NCBI GenBank assembly: GCA_903937385.1
Contig: CAIZZF010000007.1
Location: forward strand, 1-64,000
DNA length: 64,000 nucleotides
Source of the DNA: an uncultured Holophagaceae bacterium
Lineage (GTDB): Bacteria; Acidobacteriota; Holophagae; Holophagales; Holophagaceae
Direction of reading: 5' to 3'
Below, one piece after another: positions 1 to 63,011 of the stretch. Under the pieces are notes generated by a model that was given only the letters and a program-made list of their open reading frames with translations, searched no databases and had not been told where the DNA came from. The position numbers and the translations under genes were made by a program. Every line of letters begins with the position of its first letter. Positions within the stretch are counted from its first letter, which is position 1.

Positions 1-141
1 AACCTCGCGTGCGTCCAACACCTCGGCCCCCAGTTGTCTGGGACCCAGCGTCCTCCATTCCCTATCCACGTCGCCTCCTCGGCGACTCAGGGGGTTAATA
101 GTTCTGTCGCCAGGGGGTCAGTTTTGGCTGTCGCCCGATAA

Positions 142-396
142 CTGGCCCTTGCCACCTCGGGCCTCAGTCCCGAGGAGGCCCAGCGCTACACCTTGCTCAG
201 CGACCGTGAGCGGCAGGTTCTGATCCGCATCGGCCAGGGCCAAAGTTCCCGGGAGATTGGTGAAGCCCTGGGCATCAGCCCGAAAACCGAGCAGGGCCAC
301 CGGGCCCACATCATGCTCAAGCTGGCCCTGCATAACGCCCAGGCCATCGCCACCTTCGCGACTCGGGCTGGCCTGGTGGACCGTGCCAAGCCCTAG
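142..396 (+). pseudogene. Truncated LuxR/NarL-type response regulator (HTH end only)
   Basis: The reading frame encodes a LuxR-type helix-turn-helix: a LSDRERQVL entry, then SSREIGEALGISPKT as the DNA-recognition part. Such domains normally form the C-terminal third of a NarL-family response regulator of about 210 residues. Here an in-frame stop at 139-141 cuts the frame just upstream and no receiver domain is visible in the preceding bases. The only usable starts are TTG at 193 or CTG at 142, and neither has a clear ribosome binding site. The expected VDTYRxR of the recognition helix is altered to EQGHRAH. I read it as a decayed remnant; an expressed stand-alone HTH protein of about 67 residues is the alternative. 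Confidence 0.55.
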
Positions 397-617
397 GAGG
401 CCCAAAGCCCCACAGGGCTGAGGCCTGGGCGGGAACGTCAGGTCCCAGGGTCACTTATGCCTCTTATTACGATAGGGGAAATTCCCTGGGGCAGATTACC
501 TACTATAAGTTTTTTCTATACAATTAATTGCGAAACTAACCAGTACATCCGATAACAGGTTTTGACCCGGTCTCTTTCCCTTGGAGCCTGGCTATCCCAC
601 TGTCAGCGGAGATTGTC

Positions 618-1220
618 GTGCACAGCCAGTTCTTTACCAGCGGGAGTCGGTTACTCCTCACCCTCTTGGCCTGTCAGGTTCCGATGCAGGCTGGAACGAT
701 ACCCTGTTTGGGCTTGGAATTGGGTCTGGCCATCCCCGCCGCCCGCGACCTGAAGCTGACAACAGGCCCAAGCCCGGCCCCTTCCCTGGGGGCTTATGGT
801 GAGTATCCCTTGGGAGAGAGGCAGGCGCTCCGGGCGCGGGTGGAGTGGACCTTCTTCCCCCAGGGGACCCAGGTCAGCGACAACCCGGGGCTGCGCCAGC
901 AACTCGACACCAGCGTGATGTCCGAAAGCCTGGCGGTGGACTACCTCGTTCATCCTTCCTGGCTGAACCGCCGCTGGTCCCTGGGCGTCAGCGCCGGTCT
1001 GGTCCGCTGGACCGTGGACAGCACCAATCGACTTGAGACGCCTGCGGGCGTGTTCGCACCCAGCGGCTCCAGCCACTGGACCCGGGCCCAATGGGGTGTG
1101 CTCTCGAACTACCAGTGGTCGGACCGAGCCGAGCTTGAGTTCAGGTTCATGGCCAGTCATTTCGGCCAGCAGAACCTGCCAGCCCGAGTCGCCTCCCTGA
1201 ACCTGCTGCTGCACTTCTAG
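618..1220 (+). CDS. Predicted outer-membrane beta-barrel protein
   Basis: A 200-residue protein with a GTG start, a hydrophobic signal segment in roughly the first 25 residues, alternating hydrophobic and polar stretches typical of beta strands, and a C-terminal Phe (LNLLLHF), the usual signal for BAM-assisted barrel insertion. It is likely a small 8-stranded barrel of unknown substrate. It lies 10 bases ahead of a lipoprotein gene and is followed by the fibre gene, all on the same strand, so the three probably form one transcript and one surface module. I recognise no named family. Expression, start codon and barrel size are inferred. Confidence 0.7.
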   Translation: MHSQFFTSGSRLLLTLLACQVPMQAGTIPCLGLELGLAIPAARDLKLTTGPSPAPSLGAYGEYPLGERQALRARVEWTFFPQGTQVSDNPGLRQQLDTSVMSESLAVDYLVHPSWLNRRWSLGVSAGLVRWTVDSTNRLETPAGVFAPSGSSHWTRAQWGVLSNYQWSDRAELEFRFMASHFGQQNLPARVASLNLLLHF

Positions 1221-1230
1221 GGGAGCCGCC

Positions 1231-1743
1231 ATGACCCTGCTGCCCCGCCTCGCACTTCTCCCCCTCGCCTTGCTGCTGCTGGGCTGTTCCGGCGGCCACA
1301 ACTCCGGCGACCGTGCTGGAACCATCAACTGGACCCTGACGATCCAGCCCAGCACCCCAAGCCTGGTGGTTGGCCAGTCGATCCGGTTCAGCGCCAGCAC
1401 CCCCTGGGGCAACGAAGCCCAGTGGTCGGTGCTGCCCGCCACGGCGGGCCTCATCACGCCCGGTGGTCTGTTCACCGCAGCGAACACACCAGGCCCTTGC
1501 ACGGTCTACGCCGTGTGGTCGAAGGATGTGCGCTACACCGCAAGTACGATGGTCACCATCCGCCCTCTGCCTGCGGCGGCGGTGATCTCACCCAGCCTTG
1601 TGCAGGCTTTTGGGGCCCAGCAGGCGGTGCCGGGGACCACCACGGCCAACGGTGCGGTGGTGGGCGAATCCGTGCCTGCGACCACGGCCACTACGGCTGA
1701 TCAGGCCACCAAGATCCGCCACGGCTTTGATCCGCCCAAGTGA
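1231..1743 (+). CDS. Lipoprotein with bacterial Ig-like domain
   Basis: A 170-residue protein beginning with a lipoprotein signal peptide: hydrophobic core then lipobox LLGC with Cys19 as the predicted lipidated residue. Residues about 33-110 resemble a BIG2-type Ig-like fold (TIQPSTPSLVVGQSIRF, a central Trp, GLITPGGLFTA, then a YTAS/MVTI strand), a fold used for surface adhesion or as a spacer. The tail after about residue 115 is low-complexity Ala/Thr/Val. ATG 1231 follows GGGGAG about 5 bases upstream, which supports the start. Its position between a barrel gene and a giant fibre gene suggests a periplasmic or surface anchor for the fibre, which is inference from context. Confidence 0.72.
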   Translation: MTLLPRLALLPLALLLLGCSGGHNSGDRAGTINWTLTIQPSTPSLVVGQSIRFSASTPWGNEAQWSVLPATAGLITPGGLFTAANTPGPCTVYAVWSKDVRYTASTMVTIRPLPAAAVISPSLVQAFGAQQAVPGTTTANGAVVGESVPATTATTADQATKIRHGFDPPK

Positions 1744-1803
1744 TGCCGCTGCGCTGACCACCCCCGTTCTGGAATCCGCCACTCTCCTTTTCCGGTGAAT
1801 CTC

Positions 1804-4800
1804 ATGCGACATCCCTTCCTGACCCCCACCACCGCCGCCCTCATCGCCTGCACCGCGCTGCCAGCCCTTCGGGGCCAGGCCACGCCTGCGGCAGCCGATG
1901 TGGCGCCACTGCCGACCATCGCCTACCAAGGGCGGCTCATGGAAGGCGGCGTGGGCGTCACGGGCGTGCGCCAGTTCGTGTTCAGCATCCTCGACAGCAC
2001 TGGCGTCGAGCAGTGGAACTCCACGGCGCAGACTCTCACCGTGACTGAGGGCCTCTACTCGGTGGTGCTCGGCACCACTGGCATGACTGCCCTGCCCATC
2101 GCCCTGCTGGGCAAAGCCGAACTAAAATTGCACGTCACGGTCTCAGGGCAGGTCCTGACGCCGGACGTGGACATCGTGCCCGCCTTCCAGGCCCGCAGCG
2201 CCTGGGAACTGGCGGGTGCCTTCAATGGCGACGTGACCGGGACGCAGAACCAGACCCTGGTGATGAAACTCCAGGGCCTGCCCCTGGACCTGATCACCAC
2301 GCCGCCCAGCGCGGGTCAGGCCCTGGTGTTCAACGGCAGCAAGTGGCTGGCGGGAAGCGTAGCTGGAACCGCAGGTCCGACCGGTCCGCAGGGGCCCGCT
2401 GGTGCCACGGGCGCCCAAGGTCCCATCGGCTCCCAGGGCCTCATGGGGCTCACCGGGGCCATCGGCACGCCCGGCCTCAACGGCCTAGATGGCAAGACCA
2501 TCCTCAGTGGCGCAGGCAGCCCCGTGGCGGCCTCTGCGGCGGGTGCGGCGGGCGACTTCTACCTCGACACCGCCACCAGCCTGCTCTATGGCCCAAAAGT
2601 CGGGCCCACCTGGGTGGGCCTGACGGGCGTGTCCTTGGTTGGCCCCGCAGGCCCGGCAGGTGGTCCTGTGGGCCCCACGGGTCCGGCGGGCCCCGCTGGA
2701 TCACAGGGTGTCGCCGGACCGACGGGCCCAGTCGGCCCCATCGGGCTTGTCGGGCCCCTGGGACCCGTGGGGCCGCAGGGCCTCGTCGGCCCCAGTGGAC
2801 CGCAGGGCATCCAGGGTGTGGCGGGGCAGACCATCATCGCTGGTCAGGCGGTGCTGCACGGCACCAGCGACCCTGACGTGGGCGTGGGTGCCAGCGGGGA
2901 CTTCTACATCAACACGACGACCAACGTGCTGTGGGGACCCAAGGGTTCCAGCACATGGCCGGTGGTGGGTGTCAGCATGGTCGGGCCCGCAGGATCCCAG
3001 GGCATCCAGGGTGTTGCGGGGCTGGTCGGTGCCACGGGTGCCACGGGTGCCCAGGGCGCGGCAGGCATTGCGGGTCCCACGGGATTGACCGGGGCCCAGG
3101 GAGCTCAAGGCATTCAGGGCATTCAGGGCATCCAGGGCCCCATCGGCCTGACGGGCCTCACCGGCACCACAGGTGCGGCGGGCACGAACGGAACCAACGG
3201 CGCGAACGGTTTGGACGGCAAAACCATCCTCAACGGACTGGTGGCCCCCATTGCCAGCCAAGGCGTAGATGGGGACTTCTACCTCAATACCGCCACCAGC
3301 ACGATGTACGGCCCCAAGACCGCCGGGGCTTGGCCCGCAGGCGTCTCCATCGTGGGTGCCACGGGTGCGGCTGGAGCGACTGGTACGACCGGCCCGCAAG
3401 GCAACACCGGCGCCACCGGCGCACAGGGCATCCAGGGCCCCATCGGCCTGACGGGTAACACGGGCGCAACCGGCACAGCAGGTGCCAGTCCCCTCACCCT
3501 CAATGGCGCGGACGCGGTGTTCACCACCGGTTCACTGGGTCTGGGCATCAGCCCACCGGACGCCAGCGCCCTGCTGGACCTCACCAGCACCACCAAGGGC
3601 TTCCTGCCGCCGCGCATGACCGCCGCCAATCGCAGCGCCATCGTCAGCCCCGTGGCGGGCCTGGTGGTTTACCAGACTGATGGCACGGCGGGGCTCTACC
3701 AGTTCAACGGCGCCACCTGGTACCAGGTGGGCAGCGGCTCCGTTACGGGCGTCACCGGCACGGCACCGGTCACAGTGACCGGTGCCACGGCACCGGTCAT
3801 CAGCATGGCCAAGGCCACAGGCAGCGTGGATGGCTACCTGGCCGCCACGGACTTCACGGCCTTCGCCGCCAAGGGTTCCGGCTCCGTCACCAGCGTGGCG
3901 ACCTCCGGCCCGCTCACCGGCGGCACCATCACCGGCACGGGCACCCTCGGCATCACCAAGGCCACGGCCAGCGCGGACGGCTACCTGGCCGCCAGTGACT
4001 TCGCGTCCTTCGCCGCCGGGGGCACCGGGAACCTCAGGGCCGACGGCAGCGTGGCCGCCACCGGGGCGCTGGATCTGGGCAGCCAGAAAATCATTAACCT
4101 CAGCGGCCCGCCCACGCTTGCCACCGACGCCACCAACAAGAGCTACGTCGACAGCATCGCCGCCGGTCTGGCCTGGCAGGCCCCAGTCATCAACATCGTG
4201 GCCGATCCCACGGCGCTCACGCCCGTGAACGGGGACCGCTACATCGTCGGCGCCCCCGCCGCCGGGGCCTGGGTGGGCCAGGACAACAAGATCGCCCAGT
4301 ACGACGGCACCACCCCCTGGGTGTTCACCGCGCCCGCGAACAGCATGTCCGTGTTTGCCACAGTGCCCTCCAACGGCTACGTCTACCTGTCCGGCAGCGC
4401 CCAGTGGGTTCAGTTCGCCGGGTCGAGCTATGCCTTCGGCGGCGGCCTCGCCTTCAATGCGCCCAACGTCAGCATCGCCACAGGCGGTGTCACGGCAGCG
4501 AACCTGGCGACAGGCGCGGTGGATCTCTCTGGCACCAAGGTGACCGGCACTCTGCCCCTGGCCAGCGGCGGCACCGGCGGCACCGACGCGGCGAGCGCCC
4601 GCAGCAGCCTGGGCCTCAGCCCTGCGGCCACCATGACGGCCAGCAGCGGCACCAGCACCTCCACCCTGGTGAGCCGGGACGGCTCGGGCAACTTCACGGC
4701 GGGCACCATCACCGCCAATCTGACAGGCAACGTCGTCGGCGGCTTGACGGGCAACGTGCTGGGCAACGTGAGCGGCACCGCCGCCAACGTGACGGGCACA

Positions 4801-6969
4801 GTGGCCGTGGCCAACGGTGGCACCAGCGCCACGGACGCCGCGGGCGCCCGCAGCAATCTGGGCCTGGGCACGGCGGCGGTGGCGAACACCGGCACGGGCA
4901 ACGGCAACGTGCCCCTGCTGGACGGCAGCGGCAAGATCCCCACGGCCCTGCTGCCCATCAGCGGCCTCACCTACAAGGGCAACCGCAGCTTGACGGGCAA
5001 CCCCACCGTGGCGGTGGAAGCCTCGGGCAACTACTACATCATCAACGTGGCGGGCACCGAGACCGGTAGCGGGCTGGTCTTCGGCGTGGGCGACTGGCTG
5101 ATCTCCAACGGCAGCGCCTGGCAGAAGATCAGCCAGACGGCCACCGTGGCCAGCGTGGCCGGGAAGACCGGCACCGTGGCACTCGCCAGCAGCGATCTCA
5201 CGGACGTGAGCCTGAGTGGCAACGGCGTGGGCAAGGTGCTGGCCTGGGATGGCACGAAGTGGGCGCCCACGGCGGCGGCCACGGGCACCGTCACCAGCGT
5301 CACCGCAGGCACGGGCCTGAGCGGCGGCCCCATCACGGGCAGCGGAACCCTGGCCCTGGCCAACACGGCGGTAGCACCGGGCACCTACCTGCGAGCCAAC
5401 CTCACGGTGGACGCGCAGGGTCGGGTCACCTCCGCCAGCAACGGCAGCACCATCGGTCTGGGCACCGAGGTCAACGGCACCCTGCCCGTGGCCAACGGCG
5501 GCACGGGCGCCACCACCCAGGCGGGCGCGGCAAACGCCATCCTGCCCAGCCAGAGCAGCGCCAACGGCTTGTTCTTGACCTCCAACGGCACCAACGCCTC
5601 TTGGGGCAGCCCTTCAGCCATTCCAGCCAGTGCCCTCACCGGCACCGTGGCGGTGGCCAATGGAGGTACCGGCACCAGCAACGGTTCCATCACTGGCACC
5701 GGGGCGCTGGGCCTGGCGGCGGGCGGCACCAACCAGAACGTCACCCTGACGCCGAGCGGCACGGGCTATACCCTGTTGAACGGCAACGTCGGAATTGGGA
5801 CGACAACACCAGGCCAAAAGTTGCACTTATTCGGAGATGCTTCGCAAAAATTGGTCTACTCCATCTTTGAATCAACGGATGGTACTAACACCGCTGCGGT
5901 CTACCTGGGGACTGACATGAAGGGCACCTCCTCACACGCAGGCATCGCGAAGGCTGCGAAGCTACTGAACATTTCTACGACCGTACCCCTGGTCATTGAT
6001 TCTGTGTATGCCCAACCGATCGTTTTTGGAACAACCGACACTGAGCGTATGCGTATTGATGCCACAGGCAAAGTCGGCATCGGGACAACTTCACCATCCG
6101 GTTTACTTCATCTCAAAAATGGCCCTACATGGAGTAGTTTTAACTATGGTGCCGATCTGGTTGTGGATGGATCAGCACACAATGCCATCGGCCTGCTTGA
6201 TAGCACCTCGTCAAATCCATGGGCAATCGCCAATGTAACAGGGGCTCTGACCTTCGCCCAGATGCCCGCACTTGGTAACACAAGCACTTCCCCAACCAAT
6301 CGCCTGACTATTTCCACTGCAGGCAACGTCGGCATCGGGACGGCGTCACCGACTTATAAACTACATGTATCTGGTGGTACGATTAGAAACGATCTAGGAT
6401 CAAACGGTGTGAGTTTAGGCTTAACTGGTGGTGGGTCTAATTTGCAGATATATCATAATGCAGGTTCTTCAGTTTATTTTTGGAATTCAGCCAGCGGAGT
6501 TTATGAATTTTATAATGCTGCTGGTTCAACTTCAACCGGAACACTTGTCGCTGGAGCCTATACAAGTGGTTCCGACCGCCGCATGAAAAACAATATCGTA
6601 ACCACCCACTTTGGCATTGCCGATCTGATGAAAATACCGGTGCGTGATTATACCTATAAAGCCGATGCCGCCCATACGCTGACCACCGGTTTTATTGCAC
6701 AAGAGCTGTACGAGATTTTCCCCAATGCCGTAACCAAACCAGCCAAAGCCGAAGAAATGTGGAGCGTCGATTACGGCAAGGTAACGCCGCTGCTGACGAA
6801 AGCGATTCAGGATTTGAAGGCCGAGAATGATGCTCTGAAAGCCAGTCTGACGACTGAGCAACAGGCAAGCGCCGCCCAGCAGGCCAGTATCCTCACCCTC
6901 ACCAACGACCTGGACACCCTGAAAGCCCAGGTGGCGGAGATCCTTAGACAGCAGGCGAAGGGCAAGTAG
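1804..6969 (+). CDS. Giant collagen-like fibre protein with C-terminal S74 self-cleaving chaperone domain
   Basis: About 1721 residues from ATG 1804 (GGTGA six bases upstream; GTG 1795 is a longer alternative). Order seen: signal-like N-terminus; a YQGRL-type domain; four Gly-X-Y collagen-like stretches (about 2361-2490, 2637-2820, 2982-3200, 3352-3490) separated by three related GDFYL modules; long Gly/Thr/Ser repeats with [12 protein letters not shown]-type units; three NVGIGTxxP units (5787-6345); then SDRRMK, the signature of the peptidase S74 intramolecular chaperone, with Ser1590 as the predicted self-cleavage residue, and a terminal coiled coil. S74 domains trimerise phage tail fibres and then release themselves. 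Here a signal peptide and surface-gene neighbours suggest a trimeric cell-surface fibre. The last 1.1 kb is much more AT-rich than the rest. Confidence 0.85.
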
Positions 6970-7818
6970 GCCATGCTGGTGACACGGCAACAGGGCTCAG
7001 CCACACCGGCTGCGCCCCGTTTCCGTTACGGCCAAGCGGACGACACGAGCGCCAAGGACAACCTCTCTGACGCCCCCTGAACAGGACTTGCCGCCGATTG
7101 ACAGCCCATGGTCAAAGATTGGCCCCTACGCGGGTCCGTTTGCTCTGGGACCCCACGGCCAATCCCTCTCAGGATCTGGGTACCCGTGGGCTTCTTCGGC
7201 CAGGTGGCAAAAGCTGACCTGCTCGGGGCCGTCATAACGATCGACGACGCTGGAATTCAAGGTTAGGGCCAATGGCGACGTGGGCCCTGGATTCGCCAAG
7301 GCGGCCAATCGATTGAAGGCCGAGAATTAGCATATGTCGGGGAAGAACGGCCAAACGGCCCGCTTGGCGGGGATGAAGAAGGCGCTGGACTACTGGCGTT
7401 TCATCCCCGTGTGGGTGAGCACCGCCGGAGATTCGGACGGCTGGTTGATGACCGCATGAAGGAGCCAGCCACGCGCTTGGACATGAGCAGAGTGAAGGTG
7501 ATCGCCGCAGGCGGGGCAGGGACACCGTCTGGCGCGAGTAAGATCCTTTCTGGTGCACGACAGAAGGGGTCCGAAACCGGCGCGACAGGCTCTATCAACA
7601 AAGCAACCTCGCTCAGCGCTCACGCTCCGGACACGGATTCTGGTGACCCCATTCTTACTTCAGCAGCAGGTGCTGCGAAGGAGATGGAGCATGGTCAACA
7701 TCAACAGAATGCCAATTGCATTGCGCGGGAGCCGAGGGCCACCAGGCTGGGGTGCACAGGCAAGATCCAATGGACAACCGGCGCGGATTTCGATTCGCGC
7801 CGTTTTTAGAGGTAACCC
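6970..7818. other. Gene-poor gap, possible remnants
   Basis: Nearly 850 bases between the fibre gene and the next credible gene. Open frames exist on both strands (for instance 7411-7809 forward and 7232-7558 reverse), but they overlap each other, lack recognisable motifs and have no convincing ribosome binding sites. A 41-codon frame begins at ATG 7334. Short reverse-strand stretches around 7130-7300 have protein-like composition but shift frame. This looks like decayed accessory DNA; I could not assign a parent gene. Confidence 0.4.
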
Positions 7819-8670
7819 ATGAATGACCAATCCGCGGATCTTCGAAAGAAATTCCGAATTTCGACGCTCTGCCAACTCTTCGAAGCCACCCTCCTTCCTT
7901 GCTGGGAGGAGGGTTTTCCCAGGCACCATGTTCATCGCCTAGCGACCCAGGTGGTCATTGAACCCAATGGTCACCTCGGCGTGGATCTTGATCCCCAGAT
8001 GGGTGTGGTCCTCCACATCATGCGACACACGGTCCTTCTTCCCATGGCCAATGACTCCTTGAGTAAGGGGCAACCCGCACCTCCGGAATCCATCTACATC
8101 GCGATGCCCGTGGGTTCACCGCTACTGCTCCAGCGCACGCAACTGCTTCAGGAAGCCTCTCGCTTTTTCATCGACCTTTCGCAAGATGAGACCAGGGTGG
8201 TTCTGGTGACCATTTCGCACCGAAGGTTGATCAATAGGCACCTGGTCATTCGGCACTGCCCCGTGGCCCTGGTGAGTCTCGAAGGCGACCTTCTTTGGCT
8301 GCACCCTGCTGGCCTCAACTATGGCTTGATCAAAGCGCCCTTTCCGAAGAGACAGCGAAGCCGGACTTTGGGGCCGAGACTGCCCCTTAAGCGTGATCCG
8401 GATTTATTCAACGAGATGGATGATGCCACCGGCCTACCCACCATGTACGTCTATGCCAAGGAGTGCCTAAAAGCCGCACAGGAAGCGGATGAGAAGGAAG
8501 AACCTGTGTTTGCGGCGGTACTCGATTTCCAAGCCCAAAGTCTGATTCGAAGATCCATTGCCGAAGACGCCGAGACGGCCATCACGCTTGCGACCCAACA
8601 GTTCCTTAGAGGCTTTGAAAGCTTCTTTGGGATGGGTGGATTGTTGCCCGAACCGGGCCATCTCGACTGA
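7819..8670 (+). CDS. Hypothetical protein, 283 residues
   Basis: I do not recognise this family. The ATG is preceded by GAGGT at the proper distance, and the frame is open for 283 codons. The protein is soluble, with no signal peptide or membrane segment. It contains a strand-rich middle (about residues 40-150, with TRVVLVTISH and VALVSLEGDLLWLHP) and a more helical, acidic C-terminal part (about 190-275). It stands alone between a gene-poor gap and a transposase gene, with codon use and base composition less GC-rich than the housekeeping genes to the right, which fits acquired DNA. Function is unknown. Confidence 0.65.
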   Translation: MNDQSADLRKKFRISTLCQLFEATLLPCWEEGFPRHHVHRLATQVVIEPNGHLGVDLDPQMGVVLHIMRHTVLLPMANDSLSKGQPAPPESIYIAMPVGSPLLLQRTQLLQEASRFFIDLSQDETRVVLVTISHRRLINRHLVIRHCPVALVSLEGDLLWLHPAGLNYGLIKAPFPKRQRSRTLGPRLPLKRDPDLFNEMDDATGLPTMYVYAKECLKAAQEADEKEEPVFAAVLDFQAQSLIRRSIAEDAETAITLATQQFLRGFESFFGMGGLLPEPGHLD

Positions 8671-9078
8671 TCCTGCCGATGTACTTCGAGAAACACTTTG
8701 AGTGTGCCACTTTCCAAAAAGTTCCATCTTCCAACCGGTTGGATTGTCACGAGAATAATCGGTGTGGATGCCATCCGATGGCCCGGATCAATCCAACAAC
8801 ACAGCAACCACGTCATGGCCGATTAGCGCGATAGTTCCCCGCCAATCTTGGCACTGGAAATTCGACCGCACCGGTCGTTGATGGCCTTCGGCCTGTCATG
8901 GAGAACCTATGAAGACCCCAGTAACCGACTCCTCCCATGAGATCTCGTTGGGGCCACCGCCCACCTTCATGCGACAGGGCTAAGCGAATTCAGCCACCAA
9001 GGGGGCATTCCTCAGTCGCGGTTAGAGCCATGGACTCTTTGAGGAAGATCACTCGCGGTCACCTGTGTGAGATTGAAG
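8671..9078. other. Intergenic stretch left of the transposase
   Basis: About 400 bases without a supported gene. It contains a 12-base palindrome CCAACCGGTTGG near 8737 and other short inverted pieces, and should include the left end of the insertion sequence whose transposase starts at 9079. I could not define a terminal inverted repeat or a target duplication by eye. Confidence 0.4.
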
Positions 9079-9921
9079 ATGAATCAACTTAGCCTCGAAA
9101 AACGGTGCGATATCGTTGCCCACCTGGTCGAAGGGGCGTCGGTCAGGACCACCTGTCGACTCTGCAATGTCTCCAAGAACACCGTGCTAAAACTCCTCGT
9201 GGATCTAGGTCACGTCTGCCAAGAACTTCACGATCAACTCGCCGTCAGGCTGCCCAGCAAGATCCTTCAGTGCGACGAAATTTGGGCCTTCATCGGCTGC
9301 AAAAACAAGAACGTCCCTGAGCATCTCCAAGGCACCTTGGGAATAGGCGACGTATGGACCTGGGTTGCCATCGATGCAGACACAAAGCTGGTGGTCTCGT
9401 GGCGCGTTGGGAGCAGGGACCTAGAGGATGCAAAGACTTTCATTGCAGACGTGGAACACAGGCTGACAGGGCGGGTGCAACTCACTACGGATGGTCACAA
9501 GCCCTATCTCGAAGCCGTGGCGGAGTCCTTCGGAAGCTACATTGACTACGCAATGTTGATCAAACAGTTTGCCAAAAAGGAGAAAACGGAGAACAGGAAA
9601 TACAGCCCGTCAAAATGCAAGGACATCCTGAAACTGCGCATCTCCGGACACCCTGACAAAAAGGAAATCTCGACCTCTTACATCGAGCGCCAGAATCTCA
9701 CCATCAGGATGTCCATGCGTCGGTATACGCGTTTGACGAATGCGTTCTCGAAGAAGCTTGAAAACCACAGGGCTGCTGTTGCGCTGCACTTCGTTTACTA
9801 CAACTTCGTGAGGATCCACCAAACCCTTCGGGTGACCCCGGCCATGGAGGCTGGCATCACCGACCACCTTTGGTTGATCTCGGACATCGTGAAGCTGCTC
9901 GACAAATCACAAGGTGGATGA
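9079..9921 (+). mobile_element. IS1-family-type transposase
   Basis: The 280-residue product has an N-terminal helix-turn-helix (VEGASVRTTCRLCNVSKNT, about residues 20-40) that binds element ends, followed by a DDE-type catalytic domain: CDEIWAF (first Asp), a TTDGHKPY block (second Asp) and SYIERQN (Glu). This layout matches single-frame transposases annotated as IS1 family, unlike the frameshifted InsAB' of Escherichia coli IS1. ATG 9079 is preferred over GTG 9067 because related proteins begin near MNxL. The frame is intact, so the element may still be active. Terminal repeats were not resolved, so element limits are unknown; the coordinates are those of the coding frame. Confidence 0.85.
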
Positions 9922-10124
9922 GGCTGCTTAATCTGTTCGATTGGTTTGTCAACCCCCACCCATTTCAAACTGACCCACTACCCTCTGGCCGCACCCTCTG
10001 TATTCCTGTCTGGCGTTGGGCCCTCACAAGGCTGAGGGATGGGAACGCTTCCGCAGGGGCGAATCCCAGGCGCGGAATCAACGCCATGGTTGCCTGCTGA
10101 CCCGCCGGAGGGCCGAGCCGCAGC
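9922..10124. other. Spacer with possible insertion-sequence end, next to tRNA
   Basis: No gene is seen. Bases 9944-9982 (TTTGTCAACCCCCACCC then AAACTGACCCACTA) resemble, from memory, terminal repeats of some IS21-group elements. No IstA/IstB genes are in the window, so this could be a solo end or chance. The stretch ends at the 3' end of tRNA-Arg. Confidence 0.25.
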
Positions 10125-10200
10125 TGGTGGTCCCGGCGGGAATTGAACCCACGACCTACCGCTTAGGAGGCGGTCGCTCTATCCGCTGAGCTACGGGACC
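10125..10200 (-). tRNA. tRNA-Arg (anticodon CCT)
   Basis: Read on the reverse strand, the sequence folds as a standard tRNA. The acceptor stem GGTCCCG pairs with CGGGACC. The anticodon stem ACCGC/GCGGT encloses the loop CTCCTAA, giving anticodon CCT, which reads the Arg codon AGG. The T arm contains GGTTCAATTCC and the 3' CCA is encoded. The 3' end faces the accessory DNA at 1-10124, the orientation in which tRNA genes serve as attachment sites for integrating elements. Confidence 0.95.
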
Positions 10201-62397: not shown

Positions 62398-62853
62398 TTA
62401 CATCTCCATGAGCCGGGGCTGCACCAGGCGCGCGAAGTCCTGGTAGGACATCCGCACGGCCTCGGTGTGGTCGCCGCCGTTGAAGACGATCTCCTTGTCC
62501 TCCGCCAGCTGCGGGTCCACCAGCACCTCCATGTTGAAGAGGTTGCCGAAGGGCGGCATGGCACCCACTTCGCAGTCGGGGAAGTCGAAGCGGAACTCCC
62601 CTTCATGGGCGATGCGGGCGTGCTGGGCACCGGTGGACTGCTCGAGCTTGGCGAGGCTGACGTGGCGCGTGCCCGGGATGACGGCCATGGCAAGGCGACC
62701 GTCCAGGTCCACGATCACGGTCTTGGCCATCTCCTGCCCCGGTACGTGCAGGGATTGGGCCACTTCCATGGCCGTGTAGGCGGGGCGGTGGGGCATGGCA
62801 CTGTAGGCCACGTGGTGGTTCTCCAGGAATGCTTTCAGGCGGGGGGTGAGCAT
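62398..62853 (-). CDS. YbaK/EbsC-type aminoacyl-tRNA deacylase
   Basis: A 151-residue YbaK/ProX-fold protein: HVPGQEMAKTVIVDLDG with the key Lys, VIPGTRHVSLAKLEQ and a C-terminal GGDHTEAVRMSYQDFARL. The family hydrolyses mischarged tRNAs such as Cys-tRNAPro or Ala-tRNAPro; this branch (GAMPPFGNLF) is often annotated as YbaK/prolyl-tRNA synthetase-associated. ATG 62853 follows GGAGG and replaces the longer frame to 62994. Monocistronic, divergent from the hydrolase. Confidence 0.87.
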   Translation of the reverse strand: MLTPRLKAFLENHHVAYSAMPHRPAYTAMEVAQSLHVPGQEMAKTVIVDLDGRLAMAVIPGTRHVSLAKLEQSTGAQHARIAHEGEFRFDFPDCEVGAMPPFGNLFNMEVLVDPQLAEDKEIVFNGGDHTEAVRMSYQDFARLVQPRLMEM

Positions 62854-63011
62854 CGCTGCCTCCTTCGGGGAAAGGGCAGGACCAATGTCGGTTCGGACGG
62901 CCCTCTCCACAATCCATTCGCGGAGGTTTCCGGCGGACCCTTCGGCAAAGCGTTCTTTCTCCTGCTTTGAGCAGCGCCGAGGGGAGAGAATCACTCCTCA
63001 GAGGTCTTGGC

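Follow-up and report, generated by a model that had tools for sequence, protein, structure and literature searches.

A surface-fiber operon related to Bdellovibrio mosaic adhesive trimers as probable cargo of an IS1-family transposon in an uncultured Holophagaceae bacterium

Mosaic adhesive trimer (MAT) fibers were described in 2024 in Bdellovibrio bacteriovorus, which uses long, three-stranded fibers with swappable tips to recognize its prey (Caulton et al., 2024; PMC10769870). These fibers were shown to be trimeric and surface-displayed, and their architecture runs from a signal peptide and a beta-rich N-terminal domain of ~130 aa, which is conserved and for which the authors reported no homologue in the PDB, through beta-helical parts bearing capping loops to tips of S74 or other types (PMC10769870). 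A second described class, the transporter ISs (tIS; PMC9330008), consists of insertion sequences with passenger genes. In the current study, we characterized a fiber gene (positions 1804-6969) and its operon near the left end of a 64,000-nt stretch of DNA from an uncultured Holophagaceae bacterium (contig CAIZZF010000007.1, positions 1 to 64,000), referred to below as the window. Judged by its sequence, the closest known kind of fiber is the Bdellovibrio MAT fiber, and comparison with related genomes identifies the operon as cargo of a transposon, probably of the IS1 family, with an estimated length of ~12.2 kb (Table 1). A MAT-type surface-fiber operon carried as passenger by such a tIS, together with the mechanism proposed below, is in our judgment the likely explanation of the locus. 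New relative to the known MAT fibers are the collagen stalk, the conserved lipoprotein partner and the status as mobile cargo.

The fiber frame probably begins at ATG 1804 rather than GTG 1795, since the start MRHPFLTPT recurs in relatives across the genus. Its probable export signal, with a short basic start, a hydrophobic core and an A-x-A-like end conserved in paralogues, agrees with the signal proposed in an earlier sequence-only reading of this DNA, which had also described four Gly-X-Y stretches, NVGIGTxxP repeats and an S74 domain with Ser1590. All of these features were recovered. The longest Gly-X-Y run in 200 shuffles was 6 triplets, and both Pfam Collagen (E 1e-30) and Pfam Peptidase_S74 (E 8e-11) match above their curated cut-offs, the SDRRMK motif of the latter beginning at Ser1590 (ATG numbering). 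The S74 domain is followed by a tail that resembles a coiled coil by sequence. The N-terminal domain is predicted to fold as an Ig-like beta-sandwich; nothing significant was found for it among PDB sequences, and a fold search with the model returned generic Ig-like matches only (Z < 8) and no specific PDB relative. In hhalign profile comparisons, an intermediate family from this phylum matches both the N-terminal domain of the genus (98.8%, E 1e-16) and the Bdellovibrio MAT N-termini (98.1%, E 1e-13); the direct comparison gave 82% (E 1e-5) and three unrelated controls 0.1-0.4%. The Bdellovibrio loci used were real genome records, retrieved by a scan with a Bdellovibrio-like query sequence. 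By these profiles, the two N-terminal domains are homologous through intermediates. Moreover, the best PDB matches of the NVGIGT region are the MAT crystal structures Bd2133 (E 3e-11) and Bd3182 (E 4e-8), as named in PMC10769870.

The likeness to MAT fibers thus takes in the signal peptide, the beta-rich N-terminal domain, the capping loops, tips of S74 type with a Ser/Lys dyad or of other types, the many paralogues and the swapping of tips. In contrast, the fiber described here has long collagen blocks, and the word collagen does not appear in the main text of PMC10769870. A lipoprotein gene and often a barrel gene share its operon, whereas no lipoprotein neighbor was seen by eye at the fetched Bdellovibrio loci; there is also no known predation here, and the window copy rides a transposon. 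Bacterial collagen-like surface proteins offer another comparison, as they too have several Gly-X-Y blocks split by a short, recurring non-collagen module such as the one that separates the blocks of this fiber, but this fiber ends in S74 and is not anchored through an LPXTG signal.

The S74 intramolecular chaperone is also a feature of phage tail fibers and tailspikes, to which the fiber is similar in its shaft modules and in a C-terminal chaperone that is, by sequence, of the self-cleaving type. Many PHROG tail-fiber families match it, and 130 phage records, none reaching 60% identity, are similar to its C-terminal third. It could accordingly be asked whether the fiber belongs to a prophage, a tailocin or an extracellular contractile injection system, either left behind or still in use. 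The export signal and the N-terminal domain, however, were not found in phage records, and no relative came from viral contigs. A search for Baseplate_J gave no match in the genome, although the same search was positive in three control genomes, and the fiber shares its operon with genes for a lipoprotein and a predicted outer-membrane barrel. The flanks are chromosomal in both the window, where the nearby genes (YebC, SpoIID, dCMP deaminase, tRNA-Arg) fit the non-phage setting claimed earlier, and G016, a relative that carries a second copy of the element. Because the window begins at a contig end, phage genes to its left were sought in G016, and the genes found there were hrcA, grpE and dnaK, with no phage genes. 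A fiber of a prophage or injection system was rejected on the strength of the flanks, the missing Baseplate_J and the N-terminal domain, and we consider it extremely improbable. Since the C-terminal third is phage-like and the export end is not, the gene is therefore best described as a cellular export end fused to phage-type shaft and tip modules, set among chromosomal or transposon sequences with no virion genes. The sequence-only reading had called the product a domesticated tail-fiber adhesin. As far as a predicted exported, non-phage fiber with a phage-type S74 domain is concerned, this stands, but as a whole the label holds only in part, since the operon is mobile and rides on a probable IS1-family element.

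Several lines of evidence define that element. The element is bounded by perfect 21-bp inverted repeats (GGTAGTGGGTCAGTTTGAAAT): G016 shows both of them, the window the right one and a third genome, G003, the left one. In G016, an 8-bp target duplication (TCATTTTG) stands on both sides of the element; the 8 bases next to the element end in the window are CTCTGGCC. The transposase matches Pfam DDE_Tnp_IS1 above the cut-off (E 7e-7) and NCBIfam transpos_IS1 below the equivalog cut-off (E 2e-19), and its frame is intact in both genomes in which it was seen. The cargo consists of a histidine kinase, a LuxR-type response regulator, the barrel, the lipoprotein, the fiber and a 283-aa open reading frame (ORF). 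The complete response regulator of G016, which is preceded by the histidine kinase, contains Pfam Response_reg and GerE. Empty sites were also found: the G016 flanks, joined with one copy of the duplication removed, align without a break over the junction with G002 and G020, and in G000, the genome of the window, the site is closed, with hrcA and prfB-like matches 32 bp apart. Two gene names rest on reading the sequence and not on profile results: prfB, given to the gene on the right in G016, and TatD, given to the gene beside the tRNA in relatives. The window copy adjoins tRNA-Arg(CCT), where relatives carry other sequence, and the left end in G003 lies at yet another site, making three insertion sites in three species. 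A copied tRNA end was sought inside the element and not found. Beside the same tRNA-Arg(CCT), G016 has an ORF for what is, by its sequence, a putative tyrosine recombinase (L159:3192-4223). This tRNA gene may be an insertion hot spot.

The element is similar to tIS with an IS1-family transposase in having one transposase, short terminal inverted repeats, a target-site duplication and passengers between its ends, and it differs in that the passenger is a giant surface-fiber operon with its own two-component system. No tIS cargo of surface-fiber type was met in the literature searched, which does not show that none is known. The 21-bp inverted ends were not found in any other cassette fetched, including L005, L094 and the other barrel-type loci; carriage by the transposon is therefore shown for this operon lineage only. 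As for the barrel-type loci without these ends, the transposon may have taken up a chromosomal cassette, or the chromosomal cassettes may be old insertions.

Comparison of the copies suggests that adhesive fibers can spread between species as mobile cargo. Window positions 140-2808 share 95.4% DNA identity with one G016 contig end and positions 7046-9982 share 82% with a second, relative to 77-78% for core DNA of the two genomes; the contigs compared are 94 and 56 kb long, with 22 kb for the right half, and all of them also hold core genes. Likewise, the G003 and G016 elements are 98.2% identical over 5,016 bp, whereas hrcA is 78% identical. Differing flanks and the existence of empty sites led us to reject a chromosomal locus inherited by the window genome and G016 from a shared ancestor. 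It is also conceivable that, genuine inverted repeats notwithstanding, the element is dead or trapped and homologous recombination between fiber genes is now the main route by which the operon spreads. The cut response regulator and foreign left end of the window copy would fit such a history, as would the different ages of the left and right halves relative to G016 (95% and 82%). An intact transposase frame in both genomes, three different insertion sites and a perfect 8-bp duplication in G016 speak against this, and we regard it as distinctly unlikely. The first 139 bases of the window hold AGGGGGTCAGTTTTGG between two copies of CTGTCGCC. They may belong to the end of a further insertion sequence that interrupted the response-regulator gene, which would explain both the contig break and the cut response regulator.

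Table 1. Features of the fiber operon and its element in the window
Feature	Position	Strand	Remarks
Contig end, sequence foreign to the element	1-139		Homology to the relatives' element starts at base 140
Response regulator, C-terminal LuxR-type part	140-396	+	DNA match to L084; complete G016 copy at L084:5781-6422
Predicted 8-strand outer-membrane barrel, OmpA transmembrane-domain-like	618-1220	+	Model, Foldseek, alignment
Lipoprotein, candidate anchor partner	1231-1743	+	Lipobox Cys19; C-terminal RHGF module
Fiber ORF	1804-6969	+	1721 aa from ATG 1804; stop at 6969; alternative start GTG 1795
Probable signal peptide	1804-1881	+	~residues 1-26; sequence features kept in paralogues
N-terminal YQGRL domain, predicted Ig-like beta-sandwich, MAT N-terminal homologue	1906-2196	+	~residues 35-131
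Collagen block 1	2365-2499	+	15 Gly-X-Y triplets, residues 188-232
Collagen block 2	2662-2832	+	19 Gly-X-Y triplets, residues 287-343
Collagen block 3	2983-3225	+	27 Gly-X-Y triplets, residues 394-474
Collagen block 4	3355-3489	+	15 Gly-X-Y triplets, residues 518-562
Three NVGIGTxxPxxxL loops, like MAT beta-helix capping loops	5785-6357	+	Residues 1328, 1423, 1508
S74 chaperone-protease	6571-6735	+	Ser1590/Lys1595 dyad
283-aa ORF within the element	7819-8670	+	No family match; 88% identical in G016
IS1-family-like DDE transposase	9067-9921	+	Just inside the right end
Right terminal inverted repeat GGTAGTGGGTCAGTTTGAAAT	9962-9982	-	Same sequence as the left repeat of G016 and G003
tRNA-Arg(CCT) beside the element's right end	10125-10200	-	Homology to relatives stops just past the tRNA 3' end

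Another feature of the operon is the close association of fiber and lipoprotein. Among the 36 full N-terminal-domain genes with enough upstream sequence (one N-terminal fragment being left out), 30 directly follow a lipoprotein gene, and four of the other six are second fibers in tandem. In alignments of the lipoprotein, the lipobox Cys is invariant and a C-terminal RHG(F)xP motif is conserved. A sample of 297 genomes of the phylum contained the C-terminal module of the lipoprotein in 16, all of this genus, and these are all of the sampled genus genomes that have the fiber N-terminal domain; the module was absent from the six genomes of the genus that lack that domain, and no match was found outside the genus. 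A homologue of the lipoprotein also heads fibers in a second genus of the family. The module (window 1576-1740) may resemble the "TIGQP...GFW" ends of other bacterial surface proteins. Further upstream of the lipoprotein, a gene for the predicted barrel is present in 16 loci. Nothing significant was found for the barrel among PDB sequences; its model (pLDDT 86.8) has eight long strands and matches OmpA in Foldseek (E 1.6e-8). Given this gene pairing, the lipoprotein, and possibly the OmpA-like barrel, are candidate anchors of the fiber N-terminal domain.

Alternatively, the fiber could be exported, form trimers and then be shed into the matrix as a collagen-like biofilm fiber, with the lipoprotein and barrel serving other ends or aiding export. 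Its long collagen blocks do resemble known bacterial collagen-like proteins, as the matches of these parts to NCBIfam families indicate, and no membrane anchor occurs among the Pfam matches of the fiber itself, which include no YadA-type C-terminal anchor, the hallmark of trimeric autotransporter adhesins. Against this stand the near-constant lipoprotein neighbor and an N-terminal domain homologous to the one in the surface-displayed MAT fibers, and we hold release to be unlikely.

The mechanism that we propose for a transposon-borne, surface-held fiber starts from what was observed directly. For the fiber, this is its anatomy, its MAT homology and the conservation of its operon; for the element, it is the inverted ends, the transposase, the target duplication, the empty sites and an identity between species above that of core DNA. 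In addition, one closely similar operon has a different tip. Control of the operon would lie with the two-component system that the element itself carries and that is complete in G016, and the signal sequences suggest that barrel, lipoprotein and fiber are exported by Sec. Based on the conserved dyad and on Bd3182, S74 would gather three C-termini, template the beta-helix tip and cut itself at Ser1590, while the collagen blocks would form a rigid, triple-helical stalk. The conserved gene pairing points to the N-terminal YQGRL domain being held at the surface by the lipoprotein, possibly with the OmpA-like barrel, so that the exposed tip may bind a surface or another cell. The transposon would carry the whole kit between species, and recombination in the repetitive fiber would swap tips. 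A bolder version, which we put forward tentatively and consider somewhat less probable than not, is an "adhesin transposon": an IS1-family element spreading between species a self-regulated, self-anchoring, tip-swappable fiber in which the RHGF-ended lipoprotein is the receptor for the lineage's MAT-type N-terminal domain. MAT fibers are known from a predator, and a genus here has the same architecture; its near-constant lipoprotein partner is a direct candidate for what holds a MAT-type N-terminal domain at the cell surface. If a simple IS1-type transposon indeed carries such an operon, adhesive specificity could spread between species as a mobile kit and then diversify by tip exchange.

Several points weigh against this explanation. 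The left end of the window copy lies off the contig, which hides its left repeat and target duplication, and the response regulator of this copy is cut at base 140. The halves of the G016 element are on two contigs, joined by matching target duplications and collinear flanks, and G003 and G016 are drafts with ~4% estimated contamination. Export, cleavage, trimer formation and adhesion of the fiber are steps that we infer; no outer-membrane export route was identified for it, and with only eight strands, the barrel is probably too small to act as a secretion pore. Divergence of the N-terminal domain correlates with that of the lipoprotein (r 0.64 across all loci; 0.89 and 0.90 within two types), but N-terminal and S74-tip distances correlate as well (r 0.75, n=11). 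These correlations were not taken as proof of contact because linkage alone gives them and the tips show the same.

Variation within the fiber family bears on the exchange of tips. The N-terminal domain defines a multigene family; of 25 genomes of the genus, 21 contain it, and one genome may have as many as six copies. The C-termini of the family comprise several S74 types, BclA-like (below the family cut-off), ALK/LTK-type Gly-rich, phage tail collar and beta-propeller domains, and some lack any Pfam match. The S74 dyad is retained in 29 of the 30 S74 domains of the class, the single exception having lost both residues. Shaft DNA of the window gene is 92% identical over 1.8 kb to that of a paralogue on contig C3, whereas the stretches aligned near both ends are 74-76% identical. 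Between G016 and the window, the last residues of the fiber are nearly identical, while the preceding tip and S74 core are far less alike and the DNA flanking the differing stretch is close; this pattern most likely reflects an exchange of the tip. A second case of swapping is seen in G023, where the N-terminal domain of a fiber (the first copy in L092) groups with the window and its S74 tip with the other clade.

At L092:991-12936 on the minus strand, this locus has a single uninterrupted frame of 3,982 codons that also encodes the N-terminal domain; its product is among several fibers of more than 3,000 aa. Assemblies break inside or beside fiber genes in L004, L075, L084, L085, L086 and L088, probably due to shaft modules repeated between paralogues; fiber gene counts from draft genomes are therefore lower bounds. 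Finally, a 198-aa protein is encoded far from any fiber of the window (62398-62994, minus strand), and homologues with 53-57% identity lie near fiber loci in five other loci.

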